From Ralstonia pickettii (GTDB taxonomy: Bacteria > Pseudomonadota > Gammaproteobacteria > Burkholderiales > Burkholderiaceae): 64,000 nt of DNA. Both the position numbers and the translations under genes were made by a program. The stretch lies in the NCBI RefSeq assembly GCF_001699815.1, contig NZ_MCGB01000087.1:1-64000 (forward strand). Direction: 5' to 3'. Below are positions 10,955 to 37,193 of this stretch, in pieces. The notes below the pieces were generated by a model, which made no database searches, had not been told where the DNA came from, and was given only the letters and a program-made list of their open reading frames with translations. Position 1 is the stretch's first letter; every line of letters begins with the position of its first letter.

Positions 10955-10970
10955 AGTCGAATAGCTCCAC

Positions 10971-11040: not shown

Positions 11041-11059
11041 TTTCTGCTCAGGAGCCAGC

Positions 11060-11503
11060 ATGCCGCAGCCGATTCCCCAGACACTGAACGCGCCCGCGCA
11101 GGCCACGCTCGAGGCCTGGCATGCCATGCTCGAGAGCGGCAACATGGACGATCTCGACCGGCTGTTCGCCGATGAAGTGGTCTTCCGCTCACCCGTGGCG
11201 CACACGCCTTACCCGGGCCGCACGGCGACCACGCTGGTGCTTCGCACCGTCAACACCGTCTTTGAAGACTTCAAATACCACCGCAGCTTCGTCACCGGCG
11301 ACGGCGCCAGCGTGGTGCTGGAATTCAGTGCCAACGTGAGCGGCAAGGCCCTCAAGGGCATTGACATGGTGCGCTTCAACGCTGAAGGCAAGATCGTCGA
11401 GTTTGAAGTCATGGTGCGCCCGGCCAGCGGCCTGCAGGCCCTCGGCGCGGCCATGGGCGCCAAGCTGGGCGACAAGCTCGCGCTGCTCAAGGCCGAAGCC
11501 TGA
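11060..11503 (+). CDS. NTF2/SnoaL-like protein
   Basis: The 147-residue protein has the NTF2-like alpha+beta barrel pattern: an N-terminal helix with LEAWHAMLESGNMDDLDRLF, then strands with VVFRSPV, VLEFSA and MVRFNAEGKIVEFEVMVRP. Family members are small enzymes or ligand-binding proteins, and no catalytic residues can be assigned from sequence alone. It is first in a two-gene unit with a nitronate monooxygenase and sits under the double palindrome. AGGAG precedes the ATG. Confidence 0.75.
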   Translation: MPQPIPQTLNAPAQATLEAWHAMLESGNMDDLDRLFADEVVFRSPVAHTPYPGRTATTLVLRTVNTVFEDFKYHRSFVTGDGASVVLEFSANVSGKALKGIDMVRFNAEGKIVEFEVMVRPASGLQALGAAMGAKLGDKLALLKAEA

Positions 11504-11557
11504 CACCCGCTCGCGCCCTTCCCCTCATTCCATAACGATTCCAACGGAGACTGCCAT

Positions 11558-12562: not shown

Positions 12563-12565
12563 GGC

Positions 12566-13102
12566 TTACGCGGTCACTGAGGCTGGCTCCAGCAACGGCA
12601 GCACATCGTCTGCCCACGCGAGCCAGCCTTCTTCGTAAACGATGCCGCGCTGCAGCACCGCGTGCTGCAACTGCTGCGCACGCGTGAGATCGGGCCGCGC
12701 AAAATCGCGCTGCTCGATTTCGCGGAAGGTGTTCAGCCGCGTGCGGTGCTGCTCGATCAGGCGCTGCATCTCGTCGGCAAAACCGAGCGGGCCGATCACG
12801 GCGTCGGCACGCAGCTTCACCAGCACTTCTTCGCGGTTGTCCGACGACACGGTCGGCTCCAGCACCCAGCGCGCGAGTTCGTCCCGGCCCGGCGGCAGGA
12901 CGGTATACGTCTTCTTGCGGCTGTCTTCCTCTTCTTCCATGCTCACCCAGCCGGCTTCGGCCATGCGCCCGAGTTCGCGGTAGATCTGCTGATGCGTGGC
13001 GCTCCAGAAATATCCCATCGACTTGTCAAAGCGTCGAGCAAGCTCGTAGCCCGACGAGGGCTTTTCCAGCAGGGATGTCAGCAGTGCGTGTTGGATGGAC
13101 AT
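12566..13102 (-). CDS. PadR-family transcriptional regulator
   Basis: The 178-residue protein has the PadR winged helix at its N-terminus (LLEKPSSGYELARRF, then THQQIYRELGRMAEAGWV) and the C-terminal helical dimerisation domain of the Vir_act_alpha_C type. PadR proteins are mostly repressors released by small aromatic or toxic compounds. The gene converges with the NTF2/nitronate monooxygenase pair and is the best candidate to bind its twin palindromes. No copy of that palindrome is seen upstream of this gene itself. The 179 bases between its start and the next stop show no further gene. Confidence 0.87.
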   Translation of the reverse strand: MSIQHALLTSLLEKPSSGYELARRFDKSMGYFWSATHQQIYRELGRMAEAGWVSMEEEEDSRKKTYTVLPPGRDELARWVLEPTVSSDNREEVLVKLRADAVIGPLGFADEMQRLIEQHRTRLNTFREIEQRDFARPDLTRAQQLQHAVLQRGIVYEEGWLAWADDVLPLLEPASVTA

Positions 13103-13281
13103 GGGCAGAGATAACGTCAGTTTTGTTTGGCGTCGACCGGGTTTTGAGCACCGCTGACCCGATCCAACCGATTCGATCTGCGAACTCTACAGAAGCCCGG
13201 TGGATGCGTCATGCCCTGCTTGGCCACCGTTGGTTTGGTGCCGAACTCGCGCGCTTCTGTGCTGTGCGAAAGCGTTGCGTC

Positions 13282-14202
13282 TCACTCGGCTGCCTGCGTT
13301 GGCATGAAGTCTTGTGCCGCCTTCACCAGCCATGTCCGCAGCGCCTGGAGCGGCGGATAGTCAGCGCGGCTGGTGGGCCAGGCGAGGTAGTAGCGCTCGG
13401 CACTTTCCATCTCGGGCACATGCGGCAGCGCCTGCACCAGATCGCCCTGCTGCAGCTCGTGGGTAATCAGAAAACGCGGCAGTAACGCCACGCCCAGCCC
13501 CGCGACGGCCGCTTGTGCGGCGGTGGCAAATTGGTCGAACAGCATGCCTTGGGGTTCTGCACCCGCCACGTGATGGCTTGCCAGCCAGCGCGGCCAGGCA
13601 TCGGGGCGGGAGGCCAGATGCAACAGCGGCGCATGCAGCAGATCGCGCGGCTGCGCAAAGTCGTAGCGGGCCAGCAGCGCCGGGCTGCAAGCGGGGACGA
13701 CGGTTTCGCTCATCAGCAGGGCGAGTTCCGCCCCCGGCCAGTGCGGCGTACCGAAATGGATCGCCGCATCCACCGCTTCAAGTTGAAAGTCGAACTGCGA
13801 CAACCGCGTCGTCAGATTGATGGTGATGCCGGGGTGCTGGTCAAAAAACGCCGGCAGGCGCGGCGCCAGCCAACGGGTGCCGAAGGTCGGGAGGATGGCC
13901 AGATTCAGACTGCCGCCCTGCGGATTGGCTCGGAACCCCACCGTGGCGCTCGAGATGCGCATCAACGCGCCGCGGATTTCCTCCGCATACGCCTGGCCCG
14001 CTGCGCTCAGGCGCACGGTCTGGCGTTCACGCACGAACAGTTCTGCGCCAAGACGCTCTTCCAGCGCGCGAATCTGGCGACTGACGGCACTTTGCGTCAG
14101 GTGCAGCTCGGCGGCGGCGGCCGTGAAGCTCTGGTGGCGCGCGGCGGCCTCGAACGCGCATAGCAAGGACATCGGCGGCAGGAAGCGGCGGGACAGGAAC
14201 AT
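13282..14202 (-). CDS. LysR-family regulator, GcvA-like
   Basis: This LysR protein (306 residues from the chosen ATG) has a typical GcvA-like N-terminus, RFLPPMSLLCAFEAAARHQ, with the helix-turn-helix around TAAAAELHLTQSAVSRQI. The C-terminal effector domain follows. An upstream ATG at 14244 would add 14 residues, but it lies inside the palindrome at 14242-14258, so the start at 14202 is preferred; neither has a good Shine-Dalgarno sequence. It is divergent from hglS and probably controls the 2-aminoadipate degradation genes, its effector perhaps being 2-aminoadipate or 2-oxoadipate (inference). Confidence 0.85.
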   Translation of the reverse strand: MFLSRRFLPPMSLLCAFEAAARHQSFTAAAAELHLTQSAVSRQIRALEERLGAELFVRERQTVRLSAAGQAYAEEIRGALMRISSATVGFRANPQGGSLNLAILPTFGTRWLAPRLPAFFDQHPGITINLTTRLSQFDFQLEAVDAAIHFGTPHWPGAELALLMSETVVPACSPALLARYDFAQPRDLLHAPLLHLASRPDAWPRWLASHHVAGAEPQGMLFDQFATAAQAAVAGLGVALLPRFLITHELQQGDLVQALPHVPEMESAERYYLAWPTSRADYPPLQALRTWLVKAAQDFMPTQAAE

Positions 14203-14241
14203 GGGAGCGTGTGAGCTGTGCGGTGCGGAAGTCGCAACGTT

Positions 14242-14258
14242 CATTCTGTTTTGGAATG
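14242..14258. promoter_or_regulatory. LysR-type operator between LysR gene and hglS
   Basis: CATTC-N7-GAATG is a 17-bp interrupted palindrome containing a T-N11-A LysR box. It lies in the divergent region, about 80 bases before the hglS start and overlapping the upstream alternative start of the LysR gene, where an autorepression and activation site is expected. Confidence 0.5.
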
Positions 14259-14338
14259 ACCTACGCCAGGATTATCGTTTGACCAGCCTTCATTCGTCAC
14301 CCTAGCATCGCTTCACCGCTGCCAAATCCAACTCAGTC

Positions 14339-15748
14339 ATGAGCAATGCGCATCAACTCCCCGCGTCGAACTTCATCCACGCAAATGAAATCCGCTCGCG
14401 CTTTTCGCGCGCCATGTCGGCCATGTACCGCGAGGAGGTGCCGCAATACGGCACGCTGGTCGAGCTGGTGGCAGACATCAACGCCGGCACGCTGGACGCC
14501 CAGCCCGCGTTGCGCGCGCAGATGGCGCAGTCGGGTGAACTGGATCGGCTGGATATCGAGCGCCACGGCGCCATCCGTGTCGGCACGGCGGCCGAGCTGG
14601 CCACGCTGCGCCGGCTGTTTGCCGTCATGGGCATGGAACCGGTGGGTTACTACGATCTGTCGGTGGCCGGCGTGCCCGTGCATTCGACGGCGTTTCGCCC
14701 TGTAACCGATGCCGCGTTGCTGGCCAACCCGTTTCGCGTGTTCACCTCGCTGCTGCGGCTTGAGTTGATTGCCGACGCCACCCTGCGCGAGAAGGCCGCT
14801 GCCATCCTGGCGCGCCGGCAGATCTTTACCCCGCGCGTGCTCGAATTGATCGCCCAATGCGAAGCCGACGGCGGCCTGGCCAACGCAGATGCCGACGCGT
14901 TCGTACGCGAAGCGCTGGAGACCTTCCGCTGGCATAGCACCGCCACGGTTGACGCCGAGACGTATCGCGCGCTGCAAGCCGCTCACCGCCTGGTGGCGGA
15001 CGTGGTGTGCTTCCGCGGCCCCCACATCAACCACCTGACACCGCGCACCCTCGACATCGACGCCGCACAGGCCGCCATGCCCACACGCGGCATGGACGCC
15101 AAGGATGTGGTGGAAGGTCCGCCGCGCCGCGACTGCCCCATCCTGCTGCGCCAGACCAGCTTCAAGGCGCTGCAGGAAGCGGTGCGCTTTACCGACGATG
15201 CAGGCGCCCACACGGCACGCTTTGGCGAAATCGAGCAGCGCGGCGTGGCCCTCACGCGCAAGGGCCGCGCGCTCTACGACCAACTGCTGGCGGAGGTGCG
15301 CAGCATGGGCAATGCCGGCAGTGCCGCACCCAACTACGGAAGCCGGTTAGCCCAGGCGTTCAGCGCCTTTCCCGACAGCCATGACGCGTTGCGTGCGCAA
15401 GGCCTGGCGTTCTATCGCTACACGCTCACGCCGTCGGGCCATGCACAGGCCGACGCAGCCACGGCAGCCGACGCTTCGTTGGATGAACTCCTGGCCAAAG
15501 GCTGGGTGCAATCCAACCCCATCACGTATGAAGATTTCTTGCCGGTGAGCGCGGCGGGCATCTTCCAGTCCAACCTGGGCGGCGAAGAACAGAAGCAGTA
15601 CCAGGCCCACGCCGCACAGCAGGCGTTTGAGGCCGCGCTGGGTGCACGCGTGCATGACGAAATCGCGCTGTACGAGGCAGCGCAGCAGCGCTCCATCGAT
15701 CAGGTGCGCGCCGTGCTGCGCGGCACGCCCGTGGTGGATGCCGCATGA
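14339..15748 (+). CDS. hglS: 2-oxoadipate dioxygenase/decarboxylase (YdcJ/DUF1338, HglS family)
   Basis: The 469-residue protein matches the YdcJ/DUF1338 family, shown in Pseudomonas putida (HglS) to be an Fe(II) enzyme turning 2-oxoadipate into D-2-hydroxyglutarate with O2. Candidate metal ligands of its VOC-like fold are His76 in IERHGAIR, His232 in GPHINHLTPR and a Glu in FGEIEQRG near 297-299; the spacing agrees with the family as I remember it. The aminotransferase behind it makes 2-oxoadipate and the FAD dehydrogenase after that consumes D-2-hydroxyglutarate, so the operon order explains the function. Its stop overlaps the next ATG (ATGA). Confidence 0.88.
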   Translation: MSNAHQLPASNFIHANEIRSRFSRAMSAMYREEVPQYGTLVELVADINAGTLDAQPALRAQMAQSGELDRLDIERHGAIRVGTAAELATLRRLFAVMGMEPVGYYDLSVAGVPVHSTAFRPVTDAALLANPFRVFTSLLRLELIADATLREKAAAILARRQIFTPRVLELIAQCEADGGLANADADAFVREALETFRWHSTATVDAETYRALQAAHRLVADVVCFRGPHINHLTPRTLDIDAAQAAMPTRGMDAKDVVEGPPRRDCPILLRQTSFKALQEAVRFTDDAGAHTARFGEIEQRGVALTRKGRALYDQLLAEVRSMGNAGSAAPNYGSRLAQAFSAFPDSHDALRAQGLAFYRYTLTPSGHAQADAATAADASLDELLAKGWVQSNPITYEDFLPVSAAGIFQSNLGGEEQKQYQAHAAQQAFEAALGARVHDEIALYEAAQQRSIDQVRAVLRGTPVVDAA

Positions 15749-16995
15749 CCGGCCCGCACACGCCAGCCGCCATGCCGGGCTTTGCCGCCCCGTTCGCGAA
15801 CCCTGCCGGCTCGCCCATCCGTGAACTGTTTCCGTACCTCAGCCAGCCGGGGATGATCTCGCTGGCGGGCGGCTATCCGTCGCCGAGCCTGTTCGACGCT
15901 GAAGGCCTGGCGCACGCCGCCGGCCAAGCCATGACGGGCGATACGCAGGCCTTGCAGTACGGCGCGACTGAAGGACTGCCCGTCCTCCGCACGGCGCTCG
16001 CCGCATTGATGGACGCACGCGGCATCCAGGCCAGCACCGAACAGATGATGGTCACCACCGGCTCGCAGCAAGCCTTCGACCTGCTGGTGCGGGCGTTGAT
16101 CGAACCGGGGGATACGGTGCTGGTGGAAGTGCCGGCCTACCCTGCCACGCTGCAAGCCTTGCGCCTGGCGCAGGCCCGCATCGTTCCGATACCGATGGAC
16201 GAACACGGCCTGCAGACCGATGCACTGGCCGACCTGCTGCATCAACTGCCTGCCACGCAGCGCCCCAAGCTGCTCTACACCGTCCCGAATTTTTCCAACC
16301 CGCGCGGCACGCTGCTCGCCGCCCAGCGGCGCGAAGCCCTGGTGCAGCTGGCCTGCGCGCACGGCTTCTGGGTGGTGGAAGACGATCCCTACGGCGAGCT
16401 GCGCTTTGATACGGCAGAGGGCGACGCCGCTGCCATGCCACCCACGCTGCGCGCAGTGGGCGATCGGCAGGCCGTGGGCGGCACGAACCCGGTGGTGTAT
16501 CTCTCCAGCCTTTCCAAGACCGTCGCACCTGCGCTGCGGATCGGCTGGATGCTGGCCGATGCCAGCCTGCTGCGCCGCTGTGCCATCGCCAAACAGACGG
16601 TGGATCTGTGTACGTCTCCGCTGGCGCAGATGGTGGCGGCCCACTATCTGGAAAGCGGCCGCTATCCGGCTACGGTGCAGCGCGCCCGCATCGAGTATCA
16701 GCGGCGCATGCAGGCGCTGGTGCAAGGCATCGCCACGCAGCTGGATGGCCGTATGCAGTGCACCGCGCCGGCGGGCGGCATGTTTGTCTGGGCCACGTTC
16801 GCGCCGTCAATCGACCCGCAAGCGCTCTTTGATGCCGCCGTATCGCAGCAGGTGCTGTATGTGCCCGGCAAGGCGTTCTACCCGGACAACGCGCAGCTCA
16901 ACACCATGCGCCTGTCGTTTGCCGCGCCCGAGGTGCCGCAGATCGAACAGGCCGTGCAGCGGCTGGCCGCAGCCGTGGCGCTGGCCATGCGTTAA
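15745..16995 (+). CDS. PLP aminotransferase, probable 2-aminoadipate transaminase
   Basis: The 416-residue class I/II aminotransferase is of the LysN/MocR-like type without the GntR domain. Visible are the N-terminal ISLAGGYPSPSLF, the cofactor segment YTVPNFSNPRG and the PLP-binding lysine in SSLSKTVAPALRIGW. These enzymes commonly act on 2-aminoadipate, lysine or aromatic amino acids. The start overlaps the hglS stop, so translation is coupled. The following enzymes degrade 2-oxoadipate, so 2-aminoadipate is the likely amino donor. The substrate is inferred from context, as the fold alone does not decide it. Confidence 0.85.
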   Translation: MTGPHTPAAMPGFAAPFANPAGSPIRELFPYLSQPGMISLAGGYPSPSLFDAEGLAHAAGQAMTGDTQALQYGATEGLPVLRTALAALMDARGIQASTEQMMVTTGSQQAFDLLVRALIEPGDTVLVEVPAYPATLQALRLAQARIVPIPMDEHGLQTDALADLLHQLPATQRPKLLYTVPNFSNPRGTLLAAQRREALVQLACAHGFWVVEDDPYGELRFDTAEGDAAAMPPTLRAVGDRQAVGGTNPVVYLSSLSKTVAPALRIGWMLADASLLRRCAIAKQTVDLCTSPLAQMVAAHYLESGRYPATVQRARIEYQRRMQALVQGIATQLDGRMQCTAPAGGMFVWATFAPSIDPQALFDAAVSQQVLYVPGKAFYPDNAQLNTMRLSFAAPEVPQIEQAVQRLAAAVALAMR

Positions 16996-17032
16996 CGCCT
17001 CCTCAGAAAGAGACAACCTTCATCGCATTGCC

Positions 17033-18472
17033 ATGACACCCGACAACCTGATTCCGGCCTTGCACGACATCGTGGGGGCCGCCAATGTTCTGACCGGCGA
17101 CGACTGCGCCGAATACGAATCCGATTGGCGCCAGCGCGTGCGCGGCAAGGCGCTGTGCGTGGTGCGGCCCGGCTGCACGGCCGAAGTGGCCGCGGTCGTG
17201 CGCGCGTGCGCACAAGCCGGTGTGTCCATCGTGCCGCAGGGTGGCAATACGGGCCTGGTGGAAGGCTCGGTGCCCGATGCCAGCGGCGGGCAAATCATCC
17301 TGAGCCTGCGCCGCATGCAGACCGTGCGCGCCATCGACGCCGCCAACATGACGATGACGGTGGACGCCGGTTGCGTACTCCAGTCGCTGCAGGACGTGGC
17401 AAGCGAGGCCGGCATGCTGTTCCCGCTGAGCCTGGGTGCGGAAGGCAGTTGCACGATCGGCGGCAACCTGGCGACCAACGCGGGCGGCACGCAGGTGCTG
17501 CGCTATGGCAACGCGCGCGAGCTATGCCTGGGGCTGGAAGTTGTGCTGGCCGACGGGCAAGTCTGGGAGAACCTGCAAGGCCTGCGCAAGGACAACACCG
17601 GCTATGACCTGCGCAATCTGTTCATCGGTAGCGAGGGCACGCTGGGCATCATCACGGCGGCCACGCTGCGGCTGTATCCGCAACCGGCCGCGCAATTGAC
17701 GGCGTGGGCTGCGGCGCCGTCGCTGCAAGCCGCCACAGCATTGCTGGCGTTGTCGCACCGGCATCTGTCTGCGGCGCTCACGGGTTTTGAGGTCATGAGC
17801 CAGGAAGGGCTCAGGCTGGTCGACACGCACTATCCGCATCTGCGCGTGCCGATGTGGCGCGAAACAATGTGGTGCGTGCTGCTGGAAGCGTCCGACAGTG
17901 AATCCGAGGCGCATGCCCGCGCGCAGTTTGAACACCTGTTGGAAACCGCGATGGAAGACGGCATCGTGACCGACGCGATCATTGCCGAAAACATCCGGCA
18001 GGCGCACGACCTGTGGCACATCCGCGAAAGCATCACCCTGGCCCAGGCAGCCGAAGGACCCAACATCAAACACGATGTCTCGGTGCCGATCTCACGCATT
18101 CCCGAGTTCGTGGCGCAGACCGATGCGCAACTGCAGGCGCTGGCGCCCGGGCTGCGGCTCATCAACTTCGGGCACCTGGGTGATGGGAACCTGCACTACA
18201 ACGTGCAGGCTCCGGCGGGGGCGGACGCTGCAGCGTTCGTTGCCGCGCATGAGGCTGCGATCGGCGATGCGGTGTACCGGTCCGTCCACCGCTTTGGCGG
18301 TTCGATCTCGGCTGAACATGGCATCGGCGCGCTCAAGCGCGATCACCTTCCGCACTACAAGGCGCCGGTCGCCCTGCAGTTGATGCAGACCATCAAGCAG
18401 GCGCTCGACCCGCAATGCCTGCTGAACCCGGGGCGCGTGCTCGAACGGCCGCGGGGTCAGATGGCGCGATAG
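17033..18472 (+). CDS. FAD-binding dehydrogenase, probable D-2-hydroxyglutarate dehydrogenase
   Basis: The 479-residue flavoprotein is of the vanillyl-alcohol-oxidase/GlcD family. The N-terminal FAD-binding domain shows CVVRPGCTAEVAAVVRAC and VPQGGNTGLVEGSVP, then TNAGGTQVLRYG and GSEGTLGIITAATLR. The C-terminal domain has the metal/substrate motif FGHLGDGNLHYNV and EHGIGALK. It resembles D2HGDH and would oxidise D-2-hydroxyglutarate to 2-oxoglutarate, passing electrons to the respiratory chain through ETF or quinone. D-lactate or glycolate activity is the main alternative, but the position behind hglS favours D-2-hydroxyglutarate. Its 3-prime end overlaps the convergent IclR gene by 16 bases. 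Confidence 0.87.
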   Translation: MTPDNLIPALHDIVGAANVLTGDDCAEYESDWRQRVRGKALCVVRPGCTAEVAAVVRACAQAGVSIVPQGGNTGLVEGSVPDASGGQIILSLRRMQTVRAIDAANMTMTVDAGCVLQSLQDVASEAGMLFPLSLGAEGSCTIGGNLATNAGGTQVLRYGNARELCLGLEVVLADGQVWENLQGLRKDNTGYDLRNLFIGSEGTLGIITAATLRLYPQPAAQLTAWAAAPSLQAATALLALSHRHLSAALTGFEVMSQEGLRLVDTHYPHLRVPMWRETMWCVLLEASDSESEAHARAQFEHLLETAMEDGIVTDAIIAENIRQAHDLWHIRESITLAQAAEGPNIKHDVSVPISRIPEFVAQTDAQLQALAPGLRLINFGHLGDGNLHYNVQAPAGADAAAFVAAHEAAIGDAVYRSVHRFGGSISAEHGIGALKRDHLPHYKAPVALQLMQTIKQALDPQCLLNPGRVLERPRGQMAR

Positions 18473-19299
18473 GTATCGCTCACGGCCATTGATTGCATGG
18501 GGCGACGCAGCGTCGGATCAAACGGATTGATCTGCGTGGTCAGCCGATTGGCCTCGCGCAGCAGCATGTCGTAGACGATGGGCAGGCGATCGGCGCTCAG
18601 GCGGTTGGCGAGCGTACCGACGGAAAGCGCGGCGACGACGTTGCCATTGCGATCGAACACGGGCACGGCAATACCAGCCATGCCTTCAAGCAGCCCGTCC
18701 GTTTTGGCGCTGTAGCCGCGCTCGCGTGCCTTCCTGACCTCGGAGCGCAGATAGACCTCGTCGTAGACGCTGTAGTGCCGGATGCGCGGCAGGTTGTAGC
18801 GCAGCACTTCCTCCTGCTCGGCGTCGGGCAGGTGCGCGAGGATCACCAGCGCGCCCTGGCCGACGCCGAGTTCGATCCGGCCGCCCACATCGCCGGTGAA
18901 GGTGCGAATGGGGTACTGCCCTTCCACGCGATCCAGGCACACCGCATCGAAGCCCGAGCGCACCAGCAGCAGCACCGTGTCGCCCAGGCTGGCATTCAGC
19001 CGCAGCAAGGCCGGCCGGGCGACGGAGCGCAAGTCGTTCACCGCGCCCGCCTGGGCCGCCAGGCAGAAGAGGTCCAGGCTCAGCCGGTACAGCTTGTTCT
19101 GCTGGTCCTGCTCGACCATGCCTTCCTGCGTGAGCCCCTGCAGCAGGCGGTGGGTGGTGGCGGGGGTCATCCCCAGCGTCTTGGCCAGGTAGGTGACGCG
19201 CACACCTTGGTGCTGCTGCTCCGCCATGGTGCGCAGGATCTGGAAGGTGCGGTGCATGGCGCTGCGCTGATGCGCGTCGTCTTCGGAATCGACAGACAT
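18457..19299 (-). CDS. IclR-family transcriptional regulator
   Basis: The 280-residue protein has the IclR N-terminal winged helix (FQILRTMAEQQHQGVRVTYLA, then TPATTHRLLQGLTQEGMV across residues 20-65) and the C-terminal effector domain with GLLEGMAGIAVPVFDRNGNV. It is divergent from the ABC importer/dehydrogenase operon. The 19-bp palindrome at 19335-19353 in the shared upstream region fits an IclR binding site, so it most likely represses that operon until substrate is present. The 3-prime end overlaps the preceding convergent dehydrogenase gene. Confidence 0.88.
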   Translation of the reverse strand: MSVDSEDDAHQRSAMHRTFQILRTMAEQQHQGVRVTYLAKTLGMTPATTHRLLQGLTQEGMVEQDQQNKLYRLSLDLFCLAAQAGAVNDLRSVARPALLRLNASLGDTVLLLVRSGFDAVCLDRVEGQYPIRTFTGDVGGRIELGVGQGALVILAHLPDAEQEEVLRYNLPRIRHYSVYDEVYLRSEVRKARERGYSAKTDGLLEGMAGIAVPVFDRNGNVVAALSVGTLANRLSADRLPIVYDMLLREANRLTTQINPFDPTLRRPMQSMAVSDTYRAI

Positions 19300-19334
19300 A
19301 AAGCTGGAATGGACTGAATTTGGTGGATCGATTG

Positions 19335-19353
19335 TATTCCGATGAACGGAATA
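19335..19353. promoter_or_regulatory. Palindromic operator, probable IclR site
   Basis: TATTCCGATGAACGGAATA has perfect 7-bp arms around a 5-bp centre. It lies 36 bp before the IclR start and 133 bp before the ABC ATPase start. IclR-family operators are often TTCCG/CGGAA-like palindromes of this size. The surrounding 130 bases are AT-rich compared with the window, as expected of a divergent promoter region. Confidence 0.6.
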
Positions 19354-19485
19354 AATACGAGAAAAATTCCAATTACAGCGTATACACCTAGGCGTAGTCG
19401 ACGTTTTGGCACACCTGTTGCAATAGCATATCCATATTGTTCAATTGGAAGAGTCGGCGACGCCCCCAGTCGCAAAGGATCACCG

Positions 19486-20550
19486 ATGAGTTTTCTGCGC
19501 CTGAACCATGTCTCCAAGCAGTACGGCGACCTGCGGGTCGTTCAGGACTTCAACCTGAACGTGCATAAGGGCGAGTTCGTCTCGCTGCTGGGCCCATCGG
19601 GCTGCGGCAAGACGACGACGCTGCAGATGATTGCGGGCTTCGCGGAGGTGACGGAAGGCTCGATCGAGCTGGACGACAAGGACATCACCCGCGCCAAGGC
19701 CAACGCGCGCGGCCTGGGGATCGTGTTCCAGACCTACGCGCTGTTCCCGCACATGACGGTGCGCGAGAACGTGGAGTTCGGGCTGGAGATGCGCAAGTGC
19801 CCGGCAGCGGAACGCCGCGAGCGCGCCATGCAGACGCTGGCGCTCGTGCATCTGGACAAACATATCGATCGCTACCCGCGTGAGCTGTCGGGCGGCCAAC
19901 GCCAGCGCGTGGCCCTGGCACGCGCGCTGGTCATCAAACCGCCGGTGCTGCTGCTGGACGAGCCGCTGTCGAACCTGGACGCCAAGCTGCGCGAAGAGAT
20001 GCAGTTCGAGCTGCGTGAAATCCAGCGCAAGGTCGGCACGACCACCATCATGGTCACCCACGACCAGGCCGAAGCCATGTCGATCAGCGACCGCGTGGTC
20101 GTCATGGAGGCAGGCCGCATCACGCAGGTGGATACGCCGCTGGCGGTGTATGAGCATCCGAGCAATGCATTCATCTCCACCTTTGTCGGCAAGGCCAATC
20201 TGCTGCATGCAGCAGTGGTATCCGGCGCCAATGGCGAACTTCGCGCCTCGGTCGGGGCCGTGGAGCTGGCGCTGCCACCGGGCACGCCGGCGGGCAGCAA
20301 GGTCGTACTGGCGCTGCGCCCCGAAAAAATGACGTGCAACGCCGACGGCAACGGCCGCTGCGAAGGCCGCGTGACCGAACGCTTCTTCCTCGGCAACCAG
20401 TGGATGTACACCGTCGACACGCCGCTGGGCGCGATGCTGGTATCCGCCGTGAACGATGGCGACGCCCCGCGCGAAGTGGGCCAGACCGTGGGCGTGGATT
20501 GGCAAGACCGCTATGTGCGCGTGATCGGCACCGAGGGCAACGCAGCATGA
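19486..20550 (+). CDS. ABC importer ATP-binding protein, PotA-like
   Basis: The 354-residue ATPase is of the spermidine/putrescine/opine importer class. Walker A is LLGPSGCGKTTT, the signature ELSGGQRQRVALARAL, and Walker B VLLLDEPLSNLDA, followed by the switch His in MVTHDQAEAM. The C-terminal TOBE domain (about 280-350) is present. The frame is open upstream to 19342, but that part crosses the IclR palindrome, and the ATG at 19486 begins the family-typical N-terminus MSFLRLNHVSKQYG. The stop overlaps the permease start by ATGA. Confidence 0.92.
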   Translation: MSFLRLNHVSKQYGDLRVVQDFNLNVHKGEFVSLLGPSGCGKTTTLQMIAGFAEVTEGSIELDDKDITRAKANARGLGIVFQTYALFPHMTVRENVEFGLEMRKCPAAERRERAMQTLALVHLDKHIDRYPRELSGGQRQRVALARALVIKPPVLLLDEPLSNLDAKLREEMQFELREIQRKVGTTTIMVTHDQAEAMSISDRVVVMEAGRITQVDTPLAVYEHPSNAFISTFVGKANLLHAAVVSGANGELRASVGAVELALPPGTPAGSKVVLALRPEKMTCNADGNGRCEGRVTERFFLGNQWMYTVDTPLGAMLVSAVNDGDAPREVGQTVGVDWQDRYVRVIGTEGNAA

Positions 20551-21404
20551 GCCGCAGACCGATCTGGGTGCCGTGGAGCATGACCGGCCCGGCGCTGGCG
20601 CTCTTCGGCGTGATGTTGTTCGTGCCGCTGGCGCTGAGCGTGATGCTGTCGTTCAACGCGTTCGACGCCGACAAAGGCCCCATTGCGGGCACCTTCACGT
20701 TTGCGCACTACCTGCACGTGGTGCAAGACCCGTACTACTACGAAATCTTCTGGCGCACGCTGCGCGTGTCGGCGGTCGTGACGCTGATCTGCATCCTGAT
20801 CGGCGCGCCCGAGGCCTACATCCTCAGCCGGATGCGCAAGCCCTGGCGCTCGATCTTTCTGCTCGTCATCCTGGCGCCGCTGCTGATCTCGGTCGTGGTG
20901 CGCGCATTCGGCTGGAGCATGCTGCTCGGGCCCGAAGGCTTGATCAACGCCGCGTTCAAGGCCGTTGGCATCGGCCCGGTCAAGCTGCTGTACAACGAGA
21001 CGGCCGTGGTGATTGCGCTGGTGCACGTGATGTTGCCGTTCATGGTGATTCCTGTGTGGACGTCACTGCAAAAGCTCGACCCGTGGGTGGAAAACGCCGC
21101 GCTGTCGTTGTCCGCCTCGCATTTCACGACGTTGCGCCGCGTGGTGCTGCCGCAGGTCATGCCGGGCATCCTGTCGGGCAGCCTCATCGTGTTCGGCCTT
21201 GCGGCCAGCTCATTCGCCATTCCGGGGCTGCTTGGCGGGCGCCGCGTGAAGATGGTCGCCACGCTCATCTACGACGAATACCTGAACGAACTGAACTGGC
21301 CGCTGGGCGCTGCCATTGCGCTGATCCTGCTGGCGGCCAACCTCGTCATCATGCTCGGCTGGAACCGCATGATCGAAGGCCGCTACAAGAAGACGTTGGG
21401 CTGA
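20547..21404 (+). CDS. ABC importer permease, PotB-like
   Basis: The 285-residue inner-membrane protein has about six membrane segments, starting with ALALFGVMLFVPLALSVML. The cytoplasmic EAA loop that docks the ATPase is seen at ENAALSLSASHFTTLRRVVLP. It is translationally coupled to the ATPase by an ATGA overlap and pairs with the permease that follows. Confidence 0.9.
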   Translation: MSRRPIWVPWSMTGPALALFGVMLFVPLALSVMLSFNAFDADKGPIAGTFTFAHYLHVVQDPYYYEIFWRTLRVSAVVTLICILIGAPEAYILSRMRKPWRSIFLLVILAPLLISVVVRAFGWSMLLGPEGLINAAFKAVGIGPVKLLYNETAVVIALVHVMLPFMVIPVWTSLQKLDPWVENAALSLSASHFTTLRRVVLPQVMPGILSGSLIVFGLAASSFAIPGLLGGRRVKMVATLIYDEYLNELNWPLGAAIALILLAANLVIMLGWNRMIEGRYKKTLG

Positions 21405-21414
21405 AGGAGCGCAC

Positions 21415-22209
21415 ATGCAAAAGAACGGACCGCTCGCGCTCATCTTCAACGCGCTCGTCATCACCTTCATGCTGGCACCGCTGGTGATCGTGTGCATCGT
21501 CGCCTTCACGCCCGAAGAAACGCTCACGCTGCCCACCAGCCATTTCTCGCTGCGCTGGTTCGACCAGGTGCTGCATCACCCCGACTTCGTGCAGTCGTTC
21601 TGGAACAGCCTCTGGCTGGGCCTGGCGGCGGCCACGCTGTCGACCGCACTGGCGGTGCCGGCGGCCATGGCCATCGTCCGCTTCCGCGCCCCGGGCCTGC
21701 AGTATCTGCAAGGCGTGTTTCTGTCGCCGCTGATCATTCCGCACCTGGTGCTGGGCGTGGCGCTGCTGCGCATGTTCTCGCTGGTGGGCGGGCAAGGCAG
21801 CTTCGGCTGGCTGATCTTCGCGCACGCGCTGATCGTCACGCCGTACACGATGCGGCTGGTGATGGCGGCGCTGGTGGGCTTTGACCACTCGGTCGAGCAC
21901 GCCGCCTATTCGCTGGGTGCGAGCAGCTTCACGGTGTTCCGCCGCATGACGCTGCCGATGATCCTGCCGGGCATCACGGGCGGTTGGCTGCTGGCCTTCA
22001 TCAACAGCTTTGATGAACTGACGATGTCGATCTTCGTGGTGTCGCCCGCCACCGTCACGCTGCCGGTGCGCATGTACATGTACGCCACGGAATCGCTTGA
22101 CCCGATGATGGCCGCCGTCTCGGCGCTGATCGTCTTCCTCACGCTCGCGCTGATGCTGCTGCTGGACAAGGTCTATGGCCTCGACCGAATTCTGATCGGC
22201 AAGCATTGA
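21415..22209 (+). CDS. ABC importer permease, PotC-like
   Basis: The 264-residue second permease has about six membrane segments and an EAA loop at EHAAYSLGASSFTVFRRMTLP. AAGGAG precedes its ATG, 10 bases after the first permease stop. With the preceding genes it forms a heterodimeric PotBC-type channel. PotABCD-class importers also carry opines, amino-acid derivatives and quaternary amines, so the class does not fix the substrate. Confidence 0.9.
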   Translation: MQKNGPLALIFNALVITFMLAPLVIVCIVAFTPEETLTLPTSHFSLRWFDQVLHHPDFVQSFWNSLWLGLAAATLSTALAVPAAMAIVRFRAPGLQYLQGVFLSPLIIPHLVLGVALLRMFSLVGGQGSFGWLIFAHALIVTPYTMRLVMAALVGFDHSVEHAAYSLGASSFTVFRRMTLPMILPGITGGWLLAFINSFDELTMSIFVVSPATVTLPVRMYMYATESLDPMMAAVSALIVFLTLALMLLLDKVYGLDRILIGKH

Positions 22210-22222
22210 GACAGGGACCACG

Positions 22223-22549
22223 ATGAATGCTCCTGCAAACCGCTCTGCCCGCGCGCAGCTCCAGCGCCTCAAAGAGCGCAATCGCCCCACAGTGGCCTTC
22301 GTGCTAGACGGGCAGCCCGCTGAAGCCCTTGCCGGGGACACCGTCCTGACGGCCGTGCTTACGCAAATACGCCAGTTGCGCATCAATGAATTCAGCCAGC
22401 AGCCGCGCGCGGGTTTCTGCCTGATGGGCGCATGCCAGGACTGCTGGGTGCGCCTGGCCGATGGCAAATCGCTGCGTGCCTGCCAGACCATGATCGAACC
22501 CGGCATGCACATCTGCACGCAGCCGGCCGGCAACCAGGGGGCCGCGTGA
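22223..22549 (+). CDS. [2Fe-2S] subunit of a three-component amine dehydrogenase (HcnA-like)
   Basis: This 108-residue plant-type ferredoxin subunit has cysteines in GFCLMGACQDC and a distal RACQ, the usual CxxxxCxxC...C cluster ligands. It resembles HcnA of hydrogen cyanide synthase and the small subunits of opine, sarcosine and D-hydroxyproline dehydrogenases, which shuttle electrons between two flavins. The next two genes encode the matching flavoprotein subunits and its stop overlaps the next start (TGATG). Confidence 0.85.
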   Translation: MNAPANRSARAQLQRLKERNRPTVAFVLDGQPAEALAGDTVLTAVLTQIRQLRINEFSQQPRAGFCLMGACQDCWVRLADGKSLRACQTMIEPGMHICTQPAGNQGAA

Positions 22550-23979
22550 TGACGCAACCCGCCCCCACGCTGCAGCGGCAGTCGCAAGAGGATCTGCCGC
22601 CCGTCGTCATCGGTGCCGGGCCGGCAGGTGTGCGTGCGGCGCAGACGCTGCTGGCGCACGGGCTCAAACCCATCGTGCTGGACGAAGCTCCGCGCGCCGG
22701 CGGCCAGATTTATCGCCGCCAGCCAGATGGCTTCGCCCGGAGTGCCGCAGATCTGTACGGCACCGAAGCCGAACGTGCGCAGGCAATACACGCCACCTTC
22801 GACCGCCTCCAATCCCAGATCGATTACCACCCGCAGACCCTGGTCTGGAATGCCCAGCCCGATCTGCTCGACCTGCTGCATGTGCCGACGCGCGCGGTCA
22901 GTAGCCTGCCGTGGCGCGATGTGATTGTCGCGACCGGCGCCACCGACCGCGTGCTGCCCGTCCCGGGTTGGACGCTGCCCGGCGTCTATACGCTGGGCGG
23001 TGCGCAAGTCGCGCTCAAATACCAGGGCTGTGCGATTGGCGATGCCGTGGTGTTTGCCGGCACCGGCCCGCTGCTGTATCTGGTGGCCTGCCAGTACGCG
23101 AAGGCCGGCGCGAATGTCGTGGCGGTGCTCGACACCGCACCGGCCTCCGCGCGCTACAAGGCGGCACCGGCCATGCTGGGCCAGCCCGCCGTCATGGCCA
23201 AGGGGTTGGCGCTGGTCGCCTGGCTCAAGCTGCACGGCATTCCCATGCACCACGGCGTGCGACTGCTGTGCGCCGAAGGCAATGCGGCGATCGAACAACT
23301 CGTGTGGCAAGACAGCGCCGGCCGCGAGCAGCGCACCGCATGCTCCGCGGTGGGCATGGGTTACGCGCTGCGGCCCGAAACGCAACTCGCCGATCTGCTG
23401 GGCTGCGCGTTCGAGTTTTCGGCGCTGCACCGCTGCCATGTACCGCGCATTGATGCGATGCGGCGCAGCTCCGTCGCGGGCGTCTATCTGGCAGGCGATG
23501 GCGCGGGCATCATGGGCGCCGACGCAGCCGAGTACTCCGGCGAATTGGCCGCGCTCGCCCTGTTGCAGGATCGGCAAATCACCGTCGACGCCGATCGCTT
23601 GGCCGCGCTGCGCCAGCGCCTGCAGAAGATCGAGCGGTTCCGCCACGCGCTGGAAGTCGCCTTCCCGTTTCCCGATGACTGGGCCGCGCACGCCGGCGAC
23701 GACCTGGTGGTGTGCCGCTGCGAAAACGTCACCGCCGGCACCCTTCGCCAGACGGCCGCCGAATGCGGCGTGCATGAACTGAATCGGCTGAAGGCACTGT
23801 GCCGGGTCGGCATGGGCCGCTGCCAGGGCCGGATGTGCGGCGCAGCGGCAGCCGAAATCCTGGCGCAAGCGCAGTCCGTTCCGCTGGCACAGGTGGGCCG
23901 GTTGCGCGGGCAGGCACCGATCAAGCCGCTGCCGCTGGATGTGACCGAGGTGATCGAACCGGAGGACCACCATGCGTGA
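22549..23979 (+). CDS. FAD/NAD(P)-type flavoprotein subunit (HcnB/opine oxidase A-like)
   Basis: The 476-residue flavoprotein has an N-terminal dinucleotide fold VVIGAGPAGVRAAQTLL and a second VVFAGTGPLLYLVACQYA region. Its C-terminus carries a BFD-like [2Fe-2S] domain with cysteines in VVCRCENVT and LCRVGMGRCQGRMCG. This is the alpha subunit layout of HcnB, OoxA and D-hydroxyproline dehydrogenase. It should pass electrons from the amine-oxidising subunit that follows to the respiratory chain. It overlaps both neighbours by a few bases, so the three subunits are made together. Confidence 0.87.
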   Translation: MTQPAPTLQRQSQEDLPPVVIGAGPAGVRAAQTLLAHGLKPIVLDEAPRAGGQIYRRQPDGFARSAADLYGTEAERAQAIHATFDRLQSQIDYHPQTLVWNAQPDLLDLLHVPTRAVSSLPWRDVIVATGATDRVLPVPGWTLPGVYTLGGAQVALKYQGCAIGDAVVFAGTGPLLYLVACQYAKAGANVVAVLDTAPASARYKAAPAMLGQPAVMAKGLALVAWLKLHGIPMHHGVRLLCAEGNAAIEQLVWQDSAGREQRTACSAVGMGYALRPETQLADLLGCAFEFSALHRCHVPRIDAMRRSSVAGVYLAGDGAGIMGADAAEYSGELAALALLQDRQITVDADRLAALRQRLQKIERFRHALEVAFPFPDDWAAHAGDDLVVCRCENVTAGTLRQTAAECGVHELNRLKALCRVGMGRCQGRMCGAAAAEILAQAQSVPLAQVGRLRGQAPIKPLPLDVTEVIEPEDHHA

Positions 23980-25105
23980 GCAGCTTGCATGCGACGTGGC
24001 CATCATCGGCGGCGGCATCATGGGCAGCGCCACGGCGCTGTTCCTGCGGCGGCGCGGGCTGACCGTCACCTTGCTCGAACGCGACCTGTGCGGCTCACGC
24101 TCCAGCGGCGTCAATTTTGGCGGTGTGCGGCGCCAGGGCCGCTCCATCGAGCAGCTGCCGCTGGCCCAGCGTTCGCACCAGATCTGGGGGCGCCTGACCG
24201 AGCTGATCGGTACCGAGGCCGAGTACGAGCGCAGCGGGCACTTCAAGATCGCGCGCAGCGTGGCCGACATGGAATCGCTGGCCAGCTATGCAGCGCGCAG
24301 CGAGGGTTTTGGCCTGGGGCTGCAGCTCATCGAAGGCCGGGCTGCGCTGCAGAAAGTTTTTCCGATGGGCGGCGAGCAGATCGTCGGCGGCTCGCTGTGC
24401 CCGGAAGATGGACAAGCCAATCCGCGCCTGCTGTCGCCCGCGTTCGCTCGCGCCGCGCAGGCTGCCGGCGCCGATGTGCGCGAGCACGCGCCGGTGCAAT
24501 CGGTCGAGCACGATGGTGCGCGCTTCGTCGTCCATGCTCGTCAACATGACCGCGATCTGGAGGTCAAAGCCTCCGCGCTGGTCAACTGCGCCGGAGCCTG
24601 GGCAGCCCAGTTTGCCGCGCAATGGGGCGAGCCCGTGCCCATGTTCACCATCCCGCCCACGATGGGCGTGACCGAACCGCTGCCGTTCTTCCTGCCCTGG
24701 AGCCTGGGCGTGGAAGGCGGCGGCATCTACTGCCGCCAGGTGCGGCGCGGCAATGTGGTGTTCGGCGGCGGGCGCGGCTACGTGCTGGACGACCAGCGAG
24801 CACGCTCGTCGCACGTGGCGATCCTGCGCCAGCTGCCGCAGTTGGCTGCCCTGCTGCCGCAACTCACGGGCGCCCACATCATCCGCACCTGGAGCGGCAC
24901 GGAAGGCAATCTGCCCGACGACCAGCCCGTGATTGGCCCCAGTGCCCGCCGCCCTGGCCTGTTCCACGCCTTCGGCTTTGCCGGCGCCGGCTTCCAACTC
25001 GGCCCCGGCGTGGGCGATGTCATGGCCGAGCTGATTGCCGAAGGCCGCACCACCACGCCGATCGAGCCCTTTTCCATCCAACGCTTTCTGCCACCCGCAG
25101 CTTGA
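23972..25105 (+). CDS. FAD-dependent amine/imino-acid dehydrogenase catalytic subunit (DAO family, HcnC-like)
   Basis: The 377-residue D-amino-acid-oxidase-fold protein has the N-terminal FAD motif VAIIGGGIMGSATALFLRRR and the conserved NFGGVRRQGRS segment. The C-terminal GFAGAGFQLGPGVGDVMAEL closes the flavin site. This subunit oxidises the C-N bond of the substrate. With the two subunits before it, it forms an HcnABC/OoxAB-type complex. The ALDH7 enzyme in the same operon handles 2-aminoadipate semialdehyde or its cyclic imine, so pipecolate or an N6-substituted lysine is the probable substrate (inference). GGAGG precedes the ATG. Confidence 0.87.
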   Translation: MREQLACDVAIIGGGIMGSATALFLRRRGLTVTLLERDLCGSRSSGVNFGGVRRQGRSIEQLPLAQRSHQIWGRLTELIGTEAEYERSGHFKIARSVADMESLASYAARSEGFGLGLQLIEGRAALQKVFPMGGEQIVGGSLCPEDGQANPRLLSPAFARAAQAAGADVREHAPVQSVEHDGARFVVHARQHDRDLEVKASALVNCAGAWAAQFAAQWGEPVPMFTIPPTMGVTEPLPFFLPWSLGVEGGGIYCRQVRRGNVVFGGGRGYVLDDQRARSSHVAILRQLPQLAALLPQLTGAHIIRTWSGTEGNLPDDQPVIGPSARRPGLFHAFGFAGAGFQLGPGVGDVMAELIAEGRTTTPIEPFSIQRFLPPAA

Positions 25106-25131
25106 TGCACTTGATGCCCCAGGAGACCACC

Positions 25132-26197
25132 ATGCTTGTGAAACACGCGAAAACATCGTTCACGTCCATCATTGCTGCGGCTGCCGGAACCGCGCTGCTC
25201 GCCGCCGGCGCCGCCCATGCGGAAACCAAGACGCTGTACATCGGCATGAACGGCGGCAACATGGAACGCACATACACGCAGTTCGTGTTCCCGCCGTTCG
25301 AGAAGGCCAACAACGTCAAGGTCGTCGTCGTGCCGGGCACCTCGACCGACATCCTCGCCAAGGCGCAGGCGACCAAAGGCAAGGCTCAGATGCACGTGAT
25401 GACGCTGGACGACGGTGTCATGTTCCGCGCCATCGGCATGGGGGCTGTGCGAAAAGCTCAAGCCCACGGCCAACCTGTCGGCCGTGCCCGCCATTGCGCA
25501 CCTCAAGGGGGACTACGCGGTGGGCCTGTCGATGGGGCTGACCGGCCTCGCCTACAGCACCAAGATCTTCGCCGACAAGGGCTGGACGCCGCCCACCTCG
25601 TGGGGCGATCTGGCTGACCCGAAATACAAGGGCAAGGTGGTCGTGCAATCCATGCCGGCTTCGTCGTTCGGGCTGGACGCTTTCCTGATGTTCAACCGGC
25701 TGAAGGGCGGCACCGAAAAGAACGTCGACCCGGCTTTCAAGGCATGGCCCACGACCATCGGCCCGAACGTGGTCGAGTACATCCCCAACTCGTCGAAGGT
25801 GGTGGAGATGATGCAGGCGGGTGATGCGGCGCTGTTCCCCTACACGCTCACGCAGGTGGAGCTGATGAAATCGAAGGGCATCCCCATGGAATTTGTCGCA
25901 CCCAAGGAAGGCGCTGTCGTTCTGCTGACGGCGCAGTGCGTGCTGGCCAACAACCCGGATGCCGAGCTGGCGCAGAAGCTCGCGGACTACCTGATCAGCC
26001 CCGAGGCGCAGGCACTCGCCATGGAAAACGGCTCCTACAATCCAGTTAACCCCAAGGCCCCGCTCAAGGGCAAGGCGGCGGAAGAGCAGAACAAGATGAA
26101 CACCATCCTGAAGACGGCCGTTGCGCTGGACTGGGACGTGATCAACGCCGAGCGCCCGGAATGGAGCAAGCGCTGGAACCGCATCGTCGAGCGTTGA
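25132..26197 (+). pseudogene. ABC importer substrate-binding protein, frameshifted
   Basis: This is the PotD-like periplasmic binding protein of the importer. It starts MLVKHAKTSF with a clear signal peptide ending near AAHA, then KTLYIGMNGGNMERTY. The frame is right up to FRAIGMG; after a run of five G at 25440-25444 the natural sequence LCEKLKPTANLSAVP continues in another frame and runs intact to RWNRIVER at 26197. One G fewer would restore a roughly 354-residue protein. It is either a single-base error in a homopolymer or a real, possibly recent, inactivation. Codon use on both sides is normal. AGGAG precedes the start. Confidence 0.85.
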
Positions 26198-26263
26198 GCG
26201 TCAGCACCGCCGCACCGCAACAGTTTTTCGATTGAACACGAGAGAACAGCAAGGATTCGCGCC

Positions 26264-27796
26264 ATGTCAGATTCCCGAACACGATTGCAGACCGTACTGA
26301 AGGCCCTCGGCCTGAACCTGAAGGCCTATGAAGGCACGGACTGGACGAGCCGCGCCCCGCGCGATGGCACGGTATTGGCGACCGTGAAATCGCATACCGC
26401 CAGCCAGGCCGAGGCGGCCATCCAGAGTGCGCATCAGGCGTATCTGGCGTGGCGTACCGTGCCGGCGCCCGTACGCGGTGAACTGGTGCGCCGCCTGGGC
26501 GAGGTACTGCGCACGCACAAGGCGGCGCTGGGCGAACTGGTATCGCTGGAAGCGGGCAAGATCACCTCCGAGGGCCTGGGCGAAGTGCAGGAGATGATCG
26601 ACATCTGCGACTTCGCCGTCGGTCTGTCGCGGCAACTGCATGGCCTGACCATCGCCAGCGAGCGCCCTGGGCACCGGATGATGGAAACGTGGCATCCGAT
26701 GGGCGTGGTGGGCATCATCTCGGCGTTCAATTTTCCGGTGGCGGTGTGGTCGTGGAACGCCGCGCTCGCCCTGGTGTGCGGCAACGCCATCGTGTGGAAG
26801 CCGTCGGAGAAAACGCCGCTCACCGCCATTGCATGCCAGCACCTGATGCAACAGGTGGTCGACGCGTTCAATGCCGAGAAGCCCGGGGCCATTCCTGCCG
26901 GACTGAGCCAACTGCTGATCGGCGGGCGCGACGTGGGCGAAGCGCTGGTGGCCAGCCACCTCGTGCCGGTGGTCAGCGCCACGGGCTCGACGCGCATGGG
27001 CCGCCAGGTGGGCGTGAAGGTGGCGGAGCGCTTCGGCCGCTCGATCCTGGAGCTGGGCGGCAACAACGCGATGATCGTCACCCCTTCGGCGGATCTGGAA
27101 CTGGCCGCGCGCGCCATCACCTTTGCCGCCGTCGGCACGGCAGGCCAACGCTGCACCTCGCTGCGGCGTTTGATCGTGCACCGCTCGGTGGCCGATACGC
27201 TGCTGGCTCGCCTGGAAAAGATCTACCAGAGCATCGCCATTGGCGACCCGCTGGCTGACGGCACGCTGGTCGGCCCGTTGATCGACCAGGCTGCCTTCGA
27301 CGGCATGCAACAGGCACTCGCGCAGGCTCGCGCTGAAGGCGGCGAAGTGCTGGGCGGCGAGCGCGTGCGCGAAGACCTCGGCGCCGACGCCTGGTACGTG
27401 CGTCCTGCGCTGGTCAAGATGCCGAAGCCGACCAAGGTGATGGAAAGCGAGACCTTCGCACCGATCCTCTATGTCGTGACGTACGACGGCGACACCGAAC
27501 AGGCCATCGCGATCCAGAACGGCGTGCCGCAGGGCCTGTCGTCTGCCATCTTCACGGCAAGCCTGAGCGATGCCGAGCGCTTCATGTCGTCGGCCGGCAG
27601 CGACTGCGGCATCGCCAACGTCAACATCGGCACGTCGGGCGCCGAGATCGGCGGCGCATTCGGCGGCGAGAAGGAAACCGGCGGCGGCCGCGAATCCGGC
27701 TCGGACGCGTGGAAGGGCTACATGCGCCGCGCCACCAACACCGTCAACTACAGCGGCGCGCTGCCGCTGGCGCAGGGCGTTCGATTCGACGTTTGA
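26264..27796 (+). CDS. ALDH7-family 2-aminoadipate 6-semialdehyde/piperideine-6-carboxylate dehydrogenase
   Basis: The 510-residue aldehyde dehydrogenase closely resembles antiquitin (ALDH7A1) and bacterial AmaB/Pcd. The shared C-terminal blocks GTAGQRCTSLRR, GSDCGIANVNIGTSGAEIGG and GGGRESGSDAWKGYMRR are characteristic of that family. Catalytic residues are visible: Asn156, Lys179, Glu263 and Cys297. It oxidises 2-aminoadipate 6-semialdehyde, in equilibrium with cyclic P6C, to 2-aminoadipate using NAD. That product is the substrate of the aminotransferase at 15745, linking this operon to hglS. It is the last gene of the importer/dehydrogenase operon. Confidence 0.9.
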   Translation: MSDSRTRLQTVLKALGLNLKAYEGTDWTSRAPRDGTVLATVKSHTASQAEAAIQSAHQAYLAWRTVPAPVRGELVRRLGEVLRTHKAALGELVSLEAGKITSEGLGEVQEMIDICDFAVGLSRQLHGLTIASERPGHRMMETWHPMGVVGIISAFNFPVAVWSWNAALALVCGNAIVWKPSEKTPLTAIACQHLMQQVVDAFNAEKPGAIPAGLSQLLIGGRDVGEALVASHLVPVVSATGSTRMGRQVGVKVAERFGRSILELGGNNAMIVTPSADLELAARAITFAAVGTAGQRCTSLRRLIVHRSVADTLLARLEKIYQSIAIGDPLADGTLVGPLIDQAAFDGMQQALAQARAEGGEVLGGERVREDLGADAWYVRPALVKMPKPTKVMESETFAPILYVVTYDGDTEQAIAIQNGVPQGLSSAIFTASLSDAERFMSSAGSDCGIANVNIGTSGAEIGGAFGGEKETGGGRESGSDAWKGYMRRATNTVNYSGALPLAQGVRFDV

Positions 27797-37118: not shown

Positions 37119-37193
37119 GGTGGCCCCCTCGTTTCGTTGCGTTGTTCTGCGGGGCACTATAGGAAGAAACGAGGGGATTGGCGTTGCGCGCGT

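Follow-up and report, generated by a model that had tools for sequence, protein, structure and literature searches.

Flavin-dependent opine dehydrogenases, as described by Watanabe et al. (PMC4575208), combine a 2Fe-2S gamma subunit, an alpha subunit with FAD and BFD modules and a beta subunit of the DAO family that carries an Arg-X-Trp motif; their genes run in the order C-A-B in B. thailandensis, and the type-2 beta subunits are placed near the archaeal L-proline dehydrogenase. The Pseudomonas route for pipecolate and 2-aminoadipate uses AmaA, AmaB, a 2-aminoadipate transaminase, HglS and a D-2-hydroxyglutarate dehydrogenase (D2HGDH). Here we describe a gene cluster of Ralstonia pickettii in which a heterotrimer resembling the former and an ABC importer stand among genes resembling the latter. 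It lies in a window of 64,000 nt (positions 1 to 64,000 of contig NZ_MCGB01000087.1), to which all coordinates refer, in a draft genome of 5.24 Mb and 113 contigs (GCF_001699815.1). Judged from its sequence, the cluster is probably an import-and-degrade block for a lysine-derived secondary amine, ending in 2-oxoglutarate. This is what the original prediction had proposed, with the heterotrimer as the candidate upstream oxidase, and both synteny and co-occurrence back it. The predicted link to the breakdown of 2-aminoadipate and 2-oxoadipate is well supported, because family matches, HglS residues, linkage with ALDH7, co-variation among genomes and the loss of the block in one relative all point to it.

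Cluster layout and family assignments

The cluster is made of two divergent gene groups in tandem. On the left, a LysR gene faces hglS, an aminotransferase gene and a D2HGDH-like gene (14339-18472); on the right, an IclR gene faces an ABC ATPase, two permeases, the gamma, alpha and beta subunits, a substrate-binding protein (SBP) and ALDH7 (19486-27796). The 3' ends of the convergent D2HGDH-like and IclR genes overlap by 16 bases (18457-18472).

13282..14244, minus strand: LysR regulator, divergent from hglS (LysR_substrate and HTH_1)
14339..15748, plus strand: HglS, 2-oxoadipate dioxygenase/decarboxylase (NF049974, 741.6 bits, cut-off 550)
15745..16995, plus strand: class I/II aminotransferase, LysN/KAT-II-like, proposed 2-aminoadipate transaminase (PF00155; 2egy, 228 bits)
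17033..18472, plus strand: FAD-linked D2HGDH-like enzyme (FAD_binding_4 and FAD-oxidase_C; 3pm9, 6lpn)
18457..19299, minus strand: IclR regulator, divergent from the importer operon (HTH_IclR and IclR_C)
19486..20550, plus strand: ABC transporter ATPase, PotA/PhnT2-like (ABC_tran and TOBE_2)
20547..21404, plus strand: ABC permease 1 (BPD_transp_1)
21415..22209, plus strand: ABC permease 2 (BPD_transp_1)
22223..22549, plus strand: gamma subunit, 2Fe-2S protein, HcnA/OdhC-like (Fer2_4, 76 bits)
22549..23979, plus strand: alpha subunit, FAD/Fer2_BFD protein, HcnB/OdhA-like (Pyr_redox_2, Fer2_BFD; 1vrq_A, 1y56_A)
23972..25105, plus strand: beta subunit, DAO-family flavoprotein, catalytic by prediction, OdhB/HcnC/L-ProDH-beta-like (DAO, 245 bits; 1y56_B)
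25132..26197, plus strand: ABC SBP, frame broken in the assembly (two open reading frames)
26264..27796, plus strand: ALDH7/piperideine-6-carboxylate (P6C) dehydrogenase (NF050084, 813.8 bits, cut-off 730)

The importer, dehydrogenase, ALDH7, aminotransferase, HglS, D2HGDH-like and IclR genes named in the original prediction are thus all present, and all have open reading frames (ORFs) except that of the SBP. All steps had been placed within 14 kb (14339..27796) under a LysR and an IclR regulator; the gene set stands, but the range must be widened, since the block begins with the LysR gene at 13282. For the ABC ATPase we chose the start at 19486, a longer ORF from 19342 being possible; its best NCBIfam models, PhnT2 (371.5 bits) and PotA (368.2 bits), both score under their cut-offs.

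HglS exceeds the cut-off of its equivalog model and, when aligned to 6w1g, conserves His70, Arg74, His226, Glu294, Val402 and Ser403. Excerpts of PMC7286885 name His70, His226 and Glu294 as the metal triad and Arg74 as the substrate arginine. It is the only HGLS gene in the host genome, and the ALDH7 gene is likewise the only one there above the NF050084 cut-off. Among the solved relatives of the aminotransferase are 2-aminoadipate transaminase (2egy) and kynurenine/aminoadipate aminotransferase. Homology to AmaC, as originally suggested, was not borne out: BLASTP against a Pseudomonas protein of family NF049976 (2-aminoadipate transaminase) gave a best E value of 0.13, no meaningful similarity, and no host gene passes this model, the best in the genome reaching 446.8 of 650 bits at a different locus. 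If NF049976 is the family of AmaC, as we assume from the family name, the AmaC label would be wrong by family; the reaction may still be the same. The D2HGDH-like enzyme (479 aa) is closest to 3pm9, a "putative oxidoreductase" (460 bits), and to mitochondrial D2HGDH (6lpn, 332 bits). It is not of the YdiJ type (NF049975, 98.1 against 1350 bits), and a second homologue with 58% identity is encoded elsewhere in the genome.

The heterotrimer belongs with the flavin opine dehydrogenases by architecture and motif, namely a 2Fe-2S gamma subunit with C-X4-C-X2-C-X12-C (read in the sequence), an FAD and BFD alpha subunit, and a DAO beta subunit whose Arg305-X-Trp307 is present in 24 of 24 alignment rows. 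It shares with OdhABC, as described in the excerpts of PMC4575208, the gamma-alpha-beta architecture, the C-A-B order, the Arg-X-Trp motif and a linked importer; it differs in being tied to ALDH7 and HGLS genes, and its alpha subunit has 33 residues between C-X-C and C-X4-C, compared with the 15-20 printed there. By sequence, the host beta is probably nearest to the type-2 beta subunits, a placement made without a tree that includes the assayed sequences. Its best solved relative is 1y56_B (122 bits). We take 1y56, labelled "sarcosine oxidase" in the PDB, to be the archaeal L-proline dehydrogenase complex; compared with that enzyme and with heteromeric D-hydroxyproline dehydrogenase, the host complex has a separate gamma subunit and a presumed six-membered or open-chain substrate. 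Scored as AmaA, the L-pipecolate oxidase, the beta subunit reaches 57 bits against a cut-off of 600 (NF050086), and no protein in the host genome passes that model (best, 102.8 bits). At four other loci (L047, L048, L049 and L051), two beta-like genes flank alpha near a similar importer, which resembles the B1-C-A-B2 layout of Bradyrhizobium.

Conservation and loss of the block

Synteny was examined in 80 loci, the best of 551 confirmed named ones from a beta-alignment scan, some of them on short contigs; their ORFs come from a basic script that misplaces some starts. The eight closest loci (seven from Ralstonia and one from "Burkholderiaceae bacterium 26"; beta identity 94-99%) keep the order from HglS to ALDH7 in seven cases. 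The exception is Ralstonia SET104 (L056:1930-5400), where the aminotransferase and D2HGDH genes are absent between hglS and iclR. The importer-dehydrogenase unit recurs across the 80 loci: all have the SBP and 79 have alpha; gamma and each of the permeases are present in 77, the ABC ATPase in 76 and IclR in 75. Of the 80, 45 also contain an ALDH7-like gene (at least 58% identity): 20 have it downstream in the same orientation, and the others have it on the opposite strand, 24 upstream and one downstream. Full-length HglS was present in nine, the aminotransferase in 11 and D2HGDH in eight (one with just 34% identity).

One genome of the same genus (G024) aligns to the window over 10001-13103 and then from 26009 onwards, with about 930 bases between, so that window positions 13104-26008 are gone. 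The missing stretch runs from LysR through the SBP, which makes the LysR gene at 13282 part of the block. About 190 bases of the SBP 3' end remain, which points to a loss in that genome. The stretch from LysR to the SBP behaves as one unit. In a beta tree of 42 rows, the host sequence clusters (support 100/100) with those of Ralstonia L056, Acidovorax Leaf160 and Comamonas within a mostly Comamonadaceae clade, apart from the module-B rows of its own family, a placement that suggests horizontal gain of the cluster.

Co-variation of the complex with HglS

Co-occurrence was scored in 150 sampled genomes of the family, a set that overlaps the 80 named loci, counting beta at 350 bits or more. Beta was present in 60 genomes, with ALDH7 in all 60 and HGLS in 55. 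ALDH7 was found in 44 of the 90 genomes without beta, a raw contrast that is unsafe because it is confounded by reduced genomes. We therefore compared carriers of ALDH7 only: among these 104, HGLS accompanied beta in 55 of 60 and occurred without it in 22 of 44 (Fisher, 2.4e-6), 12 of the latter 22 belonging to one genus (g3). When HGLS was shuffled within genera, none of 200,000 draws over all genera attained the observed count. With g1 and g10 excluded, since no other genus had beta and HGLS less than 20 kb apart on one contig, a fraction of 3.5e-5 of draws attained it; because relatedness persists within a genus, that fraction is not a clean probability. The conserved co-occurrence for which the original prediction had suggested looking is therefore found, as complex and HGLS co-vary within genera even when unlinked. 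In 14 control genomes, NF050084 was above its cut-off in one and HGLS was present in two.

Proposed pathway and candidate substrates

Each reaction below is one we infer for this strain; what the sequences themselves show is which genes are present, their families, the HglS residues, and how far the genes are conserved and co-occur. The block would be induced by its substrate, presumably through LysR and IclR, and the polyamine/opine-type ABC importer would bring in the lysine-derived secondary amine. The gamma-alpha-beta complex would oxidize it through FAD, probably FMN, and 2Fe-2S centres to P6C or its open form, 2-aminoadipate semialdehyde, with electrons presumably passing to the respiratory chain. 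ALDH7 would convert this product to 2-aminoadipate, the aminotransferase would yield 2-oxoadipate, HglS would form D-2-hydroxyglutarate, and the D2HGDH-like enzyme would deliver 2-oxoglutarate. The host shares with the Pseudomonas route its P6C dehydrogenase, its HglS and the sequence of intermediates; the heterotrimeric dehydrogenase, the polyamine/opine-type importer, an aminotransferase from another family and a 479-aa D2HGDH-like enzyme under the YdiJ model cut-off set the host apart.

A substrate oxidized to P6C or its open form is favoured because ALDH7 follows. Pipecolate is tentatively our leading candidate, short of an even chance, since oxidation of a ring C-N bond would parallel the archaeal L-proline dehydrogenase, closest solved relative of beta. 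The host has neither an AmaA above the cut-off nor an Ldh_2 match, which makes it plausible that the substrate is taken up and not produced in the cell. DpkA presumably belongs to the Ldh_2 family, and the lack of any Ldh_2 match in the host genome at E of 0.001 or less argues against a feed from D-lysine through a DpkA-type reductase, leaving room for other reductases.

Alternative explanations

The findings that count against the proposed block concern its oxidase, its partner genes and the state of the host SBP. As regards the oxidase, in Pseudomonas L169, whose genome also bears the complex, ALDH7 has an AmaA (744 bits against 600) as its neighbour; in four further Pseudomonas regions (L171-L174) an ORF is similarly placed. 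A different DAO-family oxidase adjoins ALDH7 in three of the 80 loci (L067, L116 and L130), in four of 18 further regions (L176, L181, L183 and L184; one of the two Comamonas regions lacks it) and in three of 16 other regions (L152, L153 and L158). Among them are loci of Acidovorax, Rhodoferax and Comamonas genomes that carry the complex. Because AmaA or another DAO oxidase adjoins ALDH7 in carriers, the complex need not be an L-pipecolate oxidase, and in a number of them it would be a second way in, perhaps serving a different isomer or derivative. The idea that an HcnABC/opine-oxidase complex takes the place of AmaA thus fails as a general rule.

This coexistence in Pseudomonas argues, there, for a substrate other than L-pipecolate, and an N6-substituted lysine is the main alternative that would fit an opine-type enzyme and importer. 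As a special case of the proposed block, an opine importer would supply saccharopine or an N6-carboxyalkyl-lysine, whose epsilon C-N bond would be cut to 2-aminoadipate semialdehyde and an amino acid. The architecture and the B. thailandensis gene order match the flavin opine dehydrogenases (PMC4575208, in excerpt), and an SBP relative with an intact frame (L053) has weak solved matches to iron, pyridoxal phosphate (PLP), polyamine and agropine binders. Against this, known opine catabolism in the same excerpts frees a keto acid together with L-arginine and yields no side-chain aldehyde, and the block has no evident gene for handling the released amine. We consider this substrate unlikely, at perhaps one chance in four. 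Its broader form, in which the unit would be a widespread Proteobacteria catabolic system for such opine-like lysine derivatives (saccharopine, carboxymethyl-lysine), with a dedicated importer and a heterotrimeric flavo-iron-sulphur dehydrogenase freeing 2-aminoadipate semialdehyde directly, seems slightly less likely again.

As regards partner genes, the complex might act on a non-lysine amine (octopine, D-hydroxyproline or a different N-alkyl amino acid, for example) and simply be the neighbour of an independent 2-aminoadipate pathway. ALDH7 is missing from the fetched stretch in 35 of the 80 loci; 27 of these genomes have it elsewhere (E of 1e-150 or less), and eight, comprising six metagenome-assembled genomes and two Rhizobacter isolates (L069 and L089), have no NF050084 match at that threshold. 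Plasmids of Ensifer and Azospirillum carry the unit by itself, as judged within 12 kb. The type-2 enzyme that was assayed, BjOpnDH2, acted on octopine (Km 19.5 mM; PMC4575208, in excerpt). Five g10 genomes have beta without HGLS, and 12 g3 genomes have HGLS and ALDH7 without such a beta. G024 retained ALDH7 despite losing the block, so ALDH7 has some use without it. Set against a non-lysine substrate are three layouts that link the unit with ALDH7, the within-genus co-variation with HGLS when unlinked, and an SBP paralogue inside an ALDH7 cluster (L177, below); we regard it as doubtful, at about one chance in five.

As regards the SBP, its frame is split in the host draft between ORFs 25132-25617 and 25415-26197, and a single open frame of about 350 codons is found in 13 of 13 loci of the genus (11 genomes; two pairs share contigs). 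This could mean that the cluster is in decay and no longer works in the host strain, a reading to which the absence of the block from G024 could also speak. It is nevertheless improbable: the remaining cluster genes have open frames, and indel errors are a reasonable suspicion in a 113-contig draft whose M20 peptidase ORF (34310-35221) matches its profile over the C-terminal part only and is perhaps another draft frame break.

Comparable clusters elsewhere

For the proposed lysine-derivative block, similar gene sets are found in several lineages. One genome of the same family (L037/L161) combines in a single stretch LysR, a short HGLS and aminotransferase with ALDH7, the importer, gamma-alpha-beta and the SBP. 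In Polaromonas (L066, L068 and L074), an aminotransferase and a short HGLS adjoin the unit; L066 and L074 also have ALDH7 in the locus, and L068 has a D2HGDH-like gene. Acidovorax Leaf160 (L060) has the Ralstonia gene order with no recognizable D2HGDH gene. In Variovorax ginsengisoli (L180), HglS (68%) and aminotransferase (61%) genes lie opposite ALDH7, away from the unit; a Herbaspirillum cluster (L177) contains a short HGLS, a D2HGDH-like gene, LysR, ALDH7 and aminotransferase, with an SBP between the last two that is 51% identical to the host SBP over 250 residues.

The homologous steps had been described as scattered elsewhere, which over-states the case. ALDH7 adjoins AmaA and LysR in Pseudomonas L169, and HglS and a 2-aminoadipate transaminase in Pseudomonas L170; L158, of the same family as the host, clusters LysR, a short HGLS, a FAD-linked gene of about 1000 aa (its product just 22% identical to the host D2HGDH), ALDH7, an oxidase and an aminotransferase. 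The description is only partly right for P. putida KT2440 as well, because amaA, amaB, a LysR gene and hglS are neighbours there.

The pathway itself is known and comparable clusters occur elsewhere; what is new, among the titles and abstracts listed, is the pairing with this importer and heterotrimer, which nothing in these open-licence matches joins to the pipecolate or 2-oxoadipate pathway. The open-licence search likewise returned no paper with "pipecolate dehydrogenase" and none on carboxymethyllysine catabolism in Pseudomonas via 2-aminoadipate. The excerpts of PMC9007349 contain nothing on pipecolate; those of PMC12899673 report that ProC can make L-pipecolate from P6C and oxidize L-pipecolate slowly. 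With the cluster described here, an orphan, widespread transporter-dehydrogenase unit is tied to the 2-oxoadipate pathway, its substrate narrowed to a short, testable list.

The short HGLS proteins (about 340 aa) in comparable clusters offer a second testable prediction. They lie beside ALDH7 in 14 of 16 regions mostly picked for such proximity, and near aminotransferase and LysR genes too at L037:18103-19122, L068:2462-3493, L146:6948-7973 and others. Two that were scanned had no NCBIfam match at the limits used; that of L037 matches Pfam HGLS with 83 bits, and six aligned sequences retain residues matching the iron triad and Arg74. We predict from these sequences that they are 2-oxoadipate enzymes. 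The single-subunit DAO oxidases that are not AmaA by model (L130:13963-15147, L176:7463-8647 and L183:10315-11505, for example), found in Comamonadaceae and some genomes of the host's family, are, from their place next to ALDH7, candidate alternative pipecolate oxidases.

An Rfam scan of the window gave no match at gathering scores, and a promoter and terminator scan stayed near chance (two promoter-like sites against 1.6 expected; six terminator-like against 8.5). Downstream of the cluster, the ORF at 35712-37157 partially matches phospholipase C/acid phosphatase models.

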